Shown here: one piece after another, positions 54,501 to 57,500 of the stretch | Position numbering within the stretch: position 1 is the stretch's first letter | Layout: each line of letters begins with the position of its first letter | Assembly (NCBI GenBank): GCA_000531095.1 | Contig: HG799464.1 | Span: 970,205 to 1,028,418 of the forward strand | Origin: Gemmata massiliana | GTDB lineage: Bacteria; Planctomycetota; Planctomycetia; Gemmatales; Gemmataceae | DNA: 58,214 bases | Reading direction: 5' to 3' | Notes under the pieces: model-generated | Told to the model about the DNA's origin: nothing | What the model saw: the letters and a program-made list of their open reading frames with translations, nothing else | Database searches by the model: none | Made by a program: the position numbers and the translations under genes

Positions 54501-57500
54501 ATAGTCTCTCCCCAGATACATCTGGGGCCGAATTGAAGCGCGCAAGTCGCGTCGTCGCCAGTAGTTAGCATCGAAAGTCTCTCCCCAGATACATCTGGGG
54601 CCGAATTGAAGCGCGGCGTGCAGCGCGCGCACAACAGCCTGGCAACTTCCCGGTCTCTCCCCAGATACATCTGGGGCCGAATTGAAGCACGAGCACGTCC
54701 CGCGGGGATCGATCCCCGCGGGACGGTCTCTCCCCAGATACATCTGGGGCCGAATTGAAGCGTCCGTGAAGCCGGAGGGAAGCAAGGCGGAACGCGCGGT
54801 CTCTCCCCAGATACATCTGGGGCCGAATTGAAGCCGCGTCGGCATGCGGACAGTTGAGCGATTCGTTGCATCCGTCTCTCCCCAGATACATCTGGGGCCG
54901 AATTGAAGCACCAACTCGAAGTCAGGGGAAGCGAACATGAATTGCGTCTCTCCCCAGATACATCTGGGGCCGAATTGAAGCATTGTAACCGAATCGCGGC
55001 CACGTGTAATACCCGTTCGTCTCTCCCCAGATACATCTGGGGCCGAATTGAAGCAAAGCCTACCGCCGATACCCAATTTAAGCTTTTTCGTCTCTCCCCA
55101 GATACATCTGGGGCCGAATTGAAGCGCCGTCGGGCGTACCACTGACGACTGCGGTGATGCCGTCTCTCCCCAGATACATCTGGGGCCGAATTGAAGCTTC
55201 ACCGATGTGGACCTGGGCGAGCGATTCATTGCCGTCTCTCCCCAGATACATCTGGGGCCGAATTGAAGCCGTGGGCGGGGCGGAGCAGTACGCGACGGTA
55301 ACGCTGGTCTCTCCCCAGATACATCTGGGGCCGAATTGAAGCCTAGCCTGGGTCGAACAGCACTGCGCCGCAACCGCGTCTCTCCCCAGATACATCTGGG
55401 GCCGAATTGAAGCCGTGTGCCATCGCGTCTGAATCACGATTACCGCGGCGTGTCTCTCCCCAGATACATCTGGGGCCGAATTGAAGCCCCAACCAACAAC
55501 ACGCTGTAAGTTAACAGTGTCCCCGTCTCTCCCCAGATACATCTGGGGCCGAATTGAAGCACTTGGTGAAGCGTAACGGCATTGGGAATGGGCGGGGTCT
55601 CTCCCCAGATACATCTGGGGCCGAATTGAAGCAAGAAACTCTCCGTGCCGCACTCGAAGCCGACGACAGTCTCTCCCCAGATACATCTGGGGCCGAATTG
55701 AAGCTCGTCCAAGCAAGAAACACCTCGTATTCGATTGCGGGGTCTCTCCCCAGATACATCTGGGGCCGAATTGAAGCGGTGCCGGTGTTAGATTGATGAT
55801 GTCGGTGAGACGAAGTCTCTCCCCAGATACATCTGGGGCCGAATTGAAGCGCGTTCCCTTCGGCCGCGTTGTCCGCTGTCTGGTTAGGTCTCTCCCCAGA
55901 TACATCTGGGGCCGAATTGAAGCGGAAGTTCGCACGTCTTCCACGCGGGCCGAACGAGTTGCGTCTCTCCCCAGATACATCTGGGGCCGAATTGAAGCGG
56001 CGTGCGTGACAACGCGGCCGATGCGGTCGTATTCGTCTCTCCCCAGATACATCTGGGGCCGAATTGAAGCAATGCCCACCCGCTCGGGTATATACTCTGG
56101 CACTGTTGCGTCTCTCCCCAGATACATCTGGGGCCGAATTGAAGCCTTGCCGAGCAGTCGCGCCAGCTGCGCACCGTCTTGTCTCTCCCCAGATACATCT
56201 GGGGCCGAATTGAAGCCCGCGCCTGTGGGTCGATTACGACGAGAAGTCTCGCGTCTCTCCCCAGATACATCTGGGGCCGAATTGAAGCCCACATCCGCGA
56301 TGAGTTTGCGAACCAAGTCGTCCCGTCTCTCCCCAGATACATCTGGGGCCGAATTGAAGCTGCCGCTTGTATCTGGATGGGACGCCCACAGGTCCACCGT
56401 CTCTCCCCAGATACATCTGGGGCCGAATTGAAGCTTCCAGTTCCCACTCACTGCGCAATTGTCCCTTATCGTCTCTCCCCAGATACATCTGGGGCCGAAT
56501 TGAAGCTTGATGTTCTGCGTGCCGCTTGTGAGCAGTGTCCCGGTCTCTCCCCAGATACATCTGGGGCCGAATTGAAGCGGACCATGCTTGGTCCTGCTCA
56601 ATCGTATGGGATGACGTCTCTCCCCAGATACATCTGGGGCCGAATTGAAGCCCGCTCGGCGACCACGACGACGGGCCGGATGCGCTGGAAGTCTCTCCCC
56701 AGATACATCTGGGGCCGAATTGAAGCGTCACGCTCAAAGAGGCCGCGGCGAGCCGGGGCGTGGTCTCTCCCCAGATACATCTGGGGCCGAATTGAAGCGC
56801 TGGGTCCTTTGGGTCGATGCCCTTAAAGTTGAGCGTCTCTCCCCAGATACATCTGGGGCCGAATTGAAGCTTCGCGTTGATCGTCATCCGGTACTCGCCG
56901 AGCGAAGTCTCTCCCCAGATACATCTGGGGCCGAATTGAAGCTGACCGGTCTTTTGTGCGATCTTCCCGACCGTTTCCGGGTCTCTCCCCAGATACATCT
57001 GGGGCCGAATTGAAGCTTTTCTATCAGGACAACGGGGCGCCGAGTTCGATCGGAGTCTCTCCCCAGATACATCTGGGGCCGAATTGAAGCCAGAGGATAA
57101 CAGTGGCTAAAAGAAAGCCGAAGGAAGTCTCTCCCCAGATACATCTGGGGCCGAATTGAAGCAAGCAGTCCGTGCCCACGCTGAACGACGTGCTGGGGTC
57201 TCTCCCCAGATACATCTGGGGCCGAATTGAAGCTCGACTAGTCTTGAGTAAACACTAGAGAGCCGAAGTCTCTCCCCAGATACATCTGGGGCCGAATTGA
57301 AGCCCTGGAATCCCGTCGCCTCGTCGATCAGAGCCACTATGGTCTCTCCCCAGATACATCTGGGGCCGAATTGAAGCTTCACTTCGGCAGGGGAACTTGT
57401 CGGCGGCTTTAGGTCTCTCCCCAGATACATCTGGGGCCGAATTGAAGCATTGGGTCAAACCTCTGGTGAAACCCGGTCACGAACGTCTCTCCCCAGATAC

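Follow-up and report, generated by a model that had tools for sequence, protein, structure and literature searches.

Type I-G Locus and Its CRISPR Array

The window, that is, the whole stretch of 58,214 nucleotides of Gemmata massiliana DNA that was analyzed, carries a set of cas genes followed by a long CRISPR array (Table 1). Judged from the sequence, this array belongs to a type I-G CRISPR-Cas system: the genes code for Csb2, a Cas7 of the Csb1/GSU0053 type, Cas3g and Cas8g, and a Cas4-Cas1 fusion together with Cas2, and the PAM is TTN. In the available passages of a report on the type I-G (formerly I-U) system of Thioalkalivibrio sulfidiphilus, TTN is given as the interference PAM, and Csb1-type Cas7, Csb2, Cas3, Cas8g, and 36-nt repeats are likewise found there (PMC9638904). 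The Cas4-Cas1 fusion and Cas2 also have counterparts in other I-G systems, as far as the accessible part of that source goes (PMC10504553). Unlike the T. sulfidiphilus system, the present locus has the Cas3 and Cas8g-like regions in a single ORF, which is followed by a second Csb2-like ORF. The Cas3g/Cas8g ORF as listed overlaps Csb2, and translation probably begins further downstream. Immediately before the cas genes, an ORF for a HerA-like helicase is located at 39033-40904; its neighbors at 37177-38880 and 35780-36499 gave no match, and the three are possibly a further defense system.

Exact repeats of the array span from a first start at 51593 to a last start at 58068, with a partial copy at 58142. 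The array runs past the window and across a scaffold gap to about position 1031916 of the host contig (C3:1031916). The working set used here comprises 129 spacers, of which 89 (spacers 1-89) come from the window and 40 from the far side of the gap; next to the gap is spacer 90 (58104-58141), which was excluded and has no match at up to 9 mismatches. In one repeat (C3:1030931), 1 nt is deleted; its end was set one base too far, and spacer 117 therefore lacks its first base. Because the final two repeats (C3:1031805 and 1031881) deviate, as is usual at the terminal end of an array, the leader is presumed to lie on the cas side and the plus strand to be the crRNA direction, with which the PAM side agrees. 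The scaffold gap consists of 475 N within the array, and the window is irregular at its end as well, just ahead of the gap. The stretch after the gap resembles a 454 paired-end (loxP-type) linker; gap and linker-like stretch lie at L008 10420-10960. The draft genome of G. massiliana was sequenced with 454 Titanium paired ends, according to the part of the genome report at hand (PMC4672568).

Table 1. Features of the type I-G locus and of the array around spacer 43, in window coordinates.
Feature	Position	Strand	Remarks
Cas4-Cas1 fusion	41309..43018	+	best profile Cas1g
Cas2	43271..43675	+	Pfam match from residue 44 of listed ORF; true start probably internal
Cas7/Csb1 (GSU0053)	43692..45047	+	
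Csb2 (Cas5-Cas6 fusion, GSU0054)	45051..46535	+	PDLC01777, E 5.3e-117
ORF with Cas3g (residues 109-1061), then Cas8g-like C-terminal region (1089-1395)	46220..50413	+	Cas3g and Cas8g profiles
Second Csb2-like protein	50400..51215	+	matches C-terminal half of GSU0054 profile only
CRISPR array in window	51593..58177	+	90 exact 36-nt repeats, partial repeat at contig edge, 90 spacers
CRISPR repeat upstream of spacer 43	54653..54688	+	
Spacer 43 (of 90), palindromic	54689..54725	+	37 nt; matches intergenic hairpin of Gemmata-type prophage family
PAM-proximal 7 nt of spacer 43	54689..54695	+	outside palindrome; set target strand; in both proviruses 5/7 fit one strand and 1/7 the opposite strand
Palindrome, left arm	54696..54710	+	exact reverse complement of 54711-54725
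Palindrome, right arm	54711..54725	+	exact reverse complement of 54696-54710
CRISPR repeat downstream of spacer 43	54726..54761	+	
Spacer 46	54910..54945	+	36/36 match to G153, PAM TTT
Spacer 47	54982..55018	+	37/37 match to G153, PAM TTG
Spacer 49	55126..55161	+	31/36 match to G153, flank CTT
Spacer 51	55270..55306	+	36/37 match to host C5 prophage, PAM TTA
Spacer 79	57304..57341	+	36/38 match to host C5 prophage, PAM TTT

A Palindromic Spacer and Its Likely Source

An earlier note had pointed to a perfect 30-nt palindrome in one spacer of this array, and the palindrome is real: the two arms in spacer 43 are exactly complementary. It occupies positions 8-37 of the spacer, leaving positions 1-7 on the PAM side outside. 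While loopless perfect arms are 1-4 bp in the other 89 window spacers, those of spacer 43 are 15 bp, and about 9e-7 such palindromes would be expected by chance in 90 spacers of this base composition. The 30-nt pattern, with up to 3 mismatches allowed, has one match in the window and none in 100 shuffles.

The 24-nt core of the palindrome has no exact match in genome_contigs and one in viral_contigs, in the provirus IMGVR_UViG_2671180531_000006 (hereafter G153), where all 30 nt are identical. At up to 3 mismatches, the palindrome is found in the host only (1/149) among 149 whole genomes, and there twice, once as the spacer itself and once in a prophage on contig C5 (29/30). At this threshold, a chromosomal palindromic repeat, one of the origins proposed in the earlier note, is not supported. 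A second provirus, IMGVR_UViG_2600255093_000007 (G154; the first 60,000 of its 60,567 bases were used), also has 29/30 and appears to be the same prophage as that on C5, because the protein encoded downstream is identical and the same 11 spacer-match rows are obtained. A looser pattern with an open center matched only G153 and G154 in viral_contigs.

Over its full length, spacer 43 matches G153 at 35/37 positions (mismatches at 2 and 5; flank TCA) and the C5 prophage at 34/37 (mismatches at 3, 5, and 19; flank TTA), and the two protospacers are at the same site and on the same strand relative to the genes. On the opposite strand the palindrome matches too, but 6/7 of the remaining bases mismatch and the flank is ACA, not TTN. 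The guide therefore does not read the same on both target strands, as had been supposed from the palindrome, since the seven PAM-proximal bases match one strand (5/7). These 5/7 matches are weak when taken alone; the TTA flank and the other spacers described below add weight to them. An exact 37/37 protospacer was not found in genome_contigs, viral_contigs, the 149 whole genomes, phage records, or plasmids. Spacer 43 has no match in phage records, and on the plasmid side it has two partial matches with E of 0.1 and 0.4, which were treated as chance. Spacer positions 1-4, 6, and 7 each agree with one or both proviruses, and position 5 alone differs from both. As far as sequence comparison can tell, the source of spacer 43 is likely a third relative of G153 and the C5 prophage.

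In both proviruses, the same gene starts 61 nt beyond the end of the palindrome, whose flanks are conserved. A blastn block common to the two (91% identical) begins 21 nt before the palindrome; upstream of the block, G153 30672-33824, a region of small ORFs, shares with G154 only four patches of 44-78 nt. The downstream gene has 476 codons in G154 and about 568 in G153 (match span), and may bear some resemblance to a prohead protease. Its relatives in viral_contigs are the two proviruses, and none of 56 stretches from genome_contigs was confirmed. Among 95 family genomes, relatives are present in three, the host and two distant ones (L012 and L013); the latter have hairpins of a sequence other than the spacer 43 palindrome, and were left out of the comparison. 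About 6 kb upstream of the palindrome ends a portal gene, the one protein that Pfam named among the eight neighboring the palindrome. Its relatives in viral_contigs are the same two proviruses only, and phage records gave two partial matches with 28-30% identity. PHROGs assigned no family to any of seven neighboring proteins (7/7).

From these results, spacer 43 is best read as an ordinary type I-G memory of a Gemmata-type temperate phage, targeting a hairpin of that phage, with a probability of roughly 90% for the phage origin. The palindrome belongs to the phage and is not made by the CRISPR system; the spacer owes its palindromic form to the viral DNA hairpin from which it was taken, one that is carried 30/30 by G153 and 29/30 by the host prophage at the same intergenic site. 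A viral hairpin was among the sources suggested in the earlier note, and that suggestion holds. The source phage is probably a relative of G153 and the C5 prophage. A point against the phage origin is that G153, the closer match (35/37), has TCA in place of TTN.

By analogy with known type I-G biology, Cas4-Cas1 and Cas2 would have taken a phage fragment adjoining TTN into the array, Csb2 would process the transcript into crRNAs made up of an 8-nt handle, the spacer, and a hairpin at the 3′ end, and the crRNA would direct a complex of Csb1, Csb2, Cas8g, and Cas3 to phages with the hairpin site. The target would be a 30-bp intergenic palindrome 61 nt upstream of the 476-codon gene, at the start of the conserved block. 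The seed-side end of spacer 43, being outside the hairpin, would start the R-loop, and for this reason the hairpin probably slows rather than blocks targeting.

Other Spacers Matching the Same Proviruses

Spacer 43 is not alone in matching these proviruses. At up to 5 ungapped mismatches, 15 of the 129 spacers match G153 or G154 (s9, s16, s43, s46, s47, s49, s51, s68, s78, s79, s80, s99, s102, s104, and s105), and reversed-spacer controls gave no match at up to 7 mismatches in four targets. For 12 of these, including spacer 43 with its TTA in the host prophage, one or both proviruses have TTN at the flank, against a TT background of about 4% of positions; leaving spacer 43 aside, 14 spacers match and 11 adjoin TTN. 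Those without TTN are s49 (CTT), s68 (TGA), and s99 (TGA), of which s99 is a perfect match to the host prophage despite its TGA flank there. Spacer s102 is a perfect match to G153 and matches the C5 prophage at 36/38 with TTC. Just outside the count of 15 are s129 (6 mismatches, TTT) and s66 (a gapped match). Spacers 51 and 99 (the latter at L008 about 11669-11704) derive from one and the same prophage site in opposite orientation, with an overlap of 29 nt.

Eight of these spacers match G153: s43, s46, s47, and s49 on the minus strand at 26.2-33.9 kb, i.e., within 7.7 kb, and s9, s102, s104, and s105 on the plus strand elsewhere. Spacer s66, further from the leader, aligns with 2 mismatches and a 1-nt gap both to the G153 minus strand, at about 20.8 kb, and to the host prophage. 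The near-neighbor spacers on one G153 strand might fit primed uptake after an earlier memory, although faintly.

A close relative whose Cas1 is 99% identical (L059, G008) has the same repeat and 110 spacers, none shared exactly with the array here; one of its spacers matches the host prophage (G154) perfectly, adjoining TTG.

Possible Role of the Hairpin in the Phage

What the palindrome does in the phage can be proposed with little firmness; most likely, it acts as an RNA hairpin, which may lie in the leader preceding the downstream gene or where the upstream unit ends. The host prophage has a single substitution in the palindrome (C to T on the gene strand). With it, the sense RNA still pairs at this position, as G-U, and the antisense RNA has an A-C mismatch; the host-prophage 30-mer folds at -25.7 (sense) versus -24.4 (antisense). 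In a 122-nt context, the sense RNA of either provirus folds with the palindrome hairpin and the antisense RNA without it, while the total energy is lower in antisense (-60.0 vs. -55.2, and -62.9 vs. -55.9). On its position and the single G-U change, a thin basis, a hairpin in the sense transcript would be slightly favored over a DNA dyad.

A terminator in the classic sense, another origin raised in the earlier note, does not fit the G153 site (L010 2600-3200), which has no terminator-like or promoter-like site and no T-run; it may still be a terminator of another kind. Rfam gave no match up to E of 1 in 3 kb around each copy of the palindrome. Perfect loopless palindromes with arms of at least 9 number three in G153 (mean 0.5, maximum 2 in 30 Markov resamples) and two in G154 (resample mean 0.4, maximum 2), and there are none in the window outside the array (resample mean 0.53). 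Another perfect loopless palindrome in G153, with 16-bp arms, is located at 43390-43421 (L020 3390-3421).

Folding of the Guide

The earlier note had also predicted that the guide would fold on itself into a 15-bp hairpin without a loop. The self-folding part of this holds, since the spacer 43 RNA can form a stem, but the predicted stem is 13 bp with a 4-nt loop. This raises the question of whether the guide is a dud, acquired normally and then kept folded by its 13-bp GC stem so that it gives no protection, which would be compatible with the phage origin. Its minimum free energy (MFE) of -29.1 is the lowest of the 129 spacers, and in the crRNA context the spacer is unpaired by 22% on average, the second lowest of 129 (median 44%), both of which speak for a dud. 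With the mature crRNA modeled as an 8-nt handle, the spacer, and 28 nt of repeat, however, the repeat hairpin beside spacer 43 stays folded (pair probability 0.999), and the mean accessibility of spacer positions 1-8 is ordinary (0.48 vs. a median of 0.43 for all spacers). The other hairpin spacer of the array, s92, has a closed seed (accessibility 0.008). In type I systems, Cas7 subunits coat the guide during assembly of the complex, and full pairing with the target should outweigh the stem. Weighing both sides, we regard a dud as an unlikely outcome, though the most serious of the alternatives, and it is rather likely that spacer 43 gives a working guide. According to the model, crRNA processing should be normal; because the repeat hairpin is kept and positions 1-8 are as accessible as usual, any effect of the fold would lie on R-loop growth past position 7.

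Guides that fold on themselves as spacer 43 does are known from hairpin-spacer crRNAs of Cas13a; in the portion of that work consulted, they are designed and serve an RNA-targeting enzyme, while spacer 43 is natural and of type I (PMC7967054). Within the titles and abstract openings of the literature searched, no natural palindromic or self-folding spacers are described, and in the passages covered the phrase "self-complementary spacer" refers to paired spacers or self-matching spacers. In the accessible part of a type I-G editing paper, guide folding appears in one figure legend only.

Possible Targeting of the Host's Own Prophage

Spacer 43 might instead be directed against the host's own prophage, as tolerated autoimmunity or as a form of prophage control. 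The earlier note had foreseen self-targeting if the palindrome was chromosomal, and a near match does exist in the host chromosome, at 34/37 with TTA alongside; moreover, spacers 51 (36/37, TTA), 79 (36/38, TTT), and 102 closely match the same prophage next to TTN. Straightforward self-targeting, however, is not supported, because two of the three mismatches, those at positions 3 and 5, lie within what is normally the seed in type I systems. The closer match is in a different provirus, albeit with TCA, and the genome keeps its prophage, which suggests that no effective attack takes place. Self-targeting as the meaning of spacer 43 is therefore improbable. As with prophage-matching, self-targeting spacers in general, several spacers here match the host prophage next to the right PAM; spacer 43 differs from such spacers in having seed mismatches to the host copy and in fitting the sister provirus slightly better.

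A Possible Hairpin Preference in Spacer Uptake

A more unusual explanation is that the adaptation machinery prefers hairpin DNA, so that foldable spacers are over-sampled. The array indeed has a second hairpin spacer, s92, beyond the scaffold gap (C3:1029158, L008), with 12-bp arms and a 4-nt loop; searches of the host genome, viral_contigs (for exact arms), and the 95 family genomes revealed no source for it. Among 9,929 TTN-adjacent 37-mers of the two proviruses, 11 have arms of at least 12, which predicts 0.14 in 129 spacers where two are seen (binomial P 0.009); by folding energy, one of the 9,929 windows reaches -28, which predicts 0.013 in 129 where again two are seen (P 8e-5). Both tests were chosen after the spacers had been seen, and their rates come from two proviruses.

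Related systems point the other way. Eighteen regions near related Cas1 genes were considered, and 11 of them have arrays, taken as type I-G from the Cas1 genes beside them. In these 11 arrays, from 10 relatives, none of 982 spacers has arms of at least 12 (maximum 11), and the lowest energy is -25.3. When the 1,111 spacers are pooled, two are seen by arm length against about 1.2 expected; by energy, two are seen against about 0.1 expected, a rate that derives from a single window in the two proviruses. Thus, the relatives show no hairpin preference, and the array here, taken alone, has an excess that is small and unproven. A preference for hairpin DNA is accordingly a long shot, and the same low odds apply to the fuller proposal that type I-G adaptation captures foldable phage hairpins via their folded form, leaving guides partly shut. 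If it were true, the two hairpin spacers among the 129 of this array would document hairpin capture in nature, and would offer a natural setting in which to see how far a type I complex is restricted by self-structure of its guide.

Lastly, an artefact of assembly or sequencing, which the earlier note had named as the thing that would undo the palindrome and which the scaffold gap splitting the array, with the linker-like remnant alongside, might seem to favor, is excluded for practical purposes, because independent copies exist: the same 30-mer in G153, a separate provirus about 9% diverged in the block concerned, and the 30-mer of the host prophage, which differs by one change and lies on a different contig from the array.

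Implications

With the palindrome explained as a phage hairpin, spacer 43 is a real and rare feature that is otherwise an ordinary type I-G spacer. The long array of G. massiliana is tied to a prophage family present in the host even though several spacers match it closely next to TTN, and the near-matches of spacers 51, 79, and 102 to the C5 prophage raise the question of how the prophage is tolerated. Furthermore, spacer 43 provides a naturally occurring type I-G guide that has strong self-structure and for which two near-targets are known, by which the consequences of a folded guide for type I immunity are directly testable.
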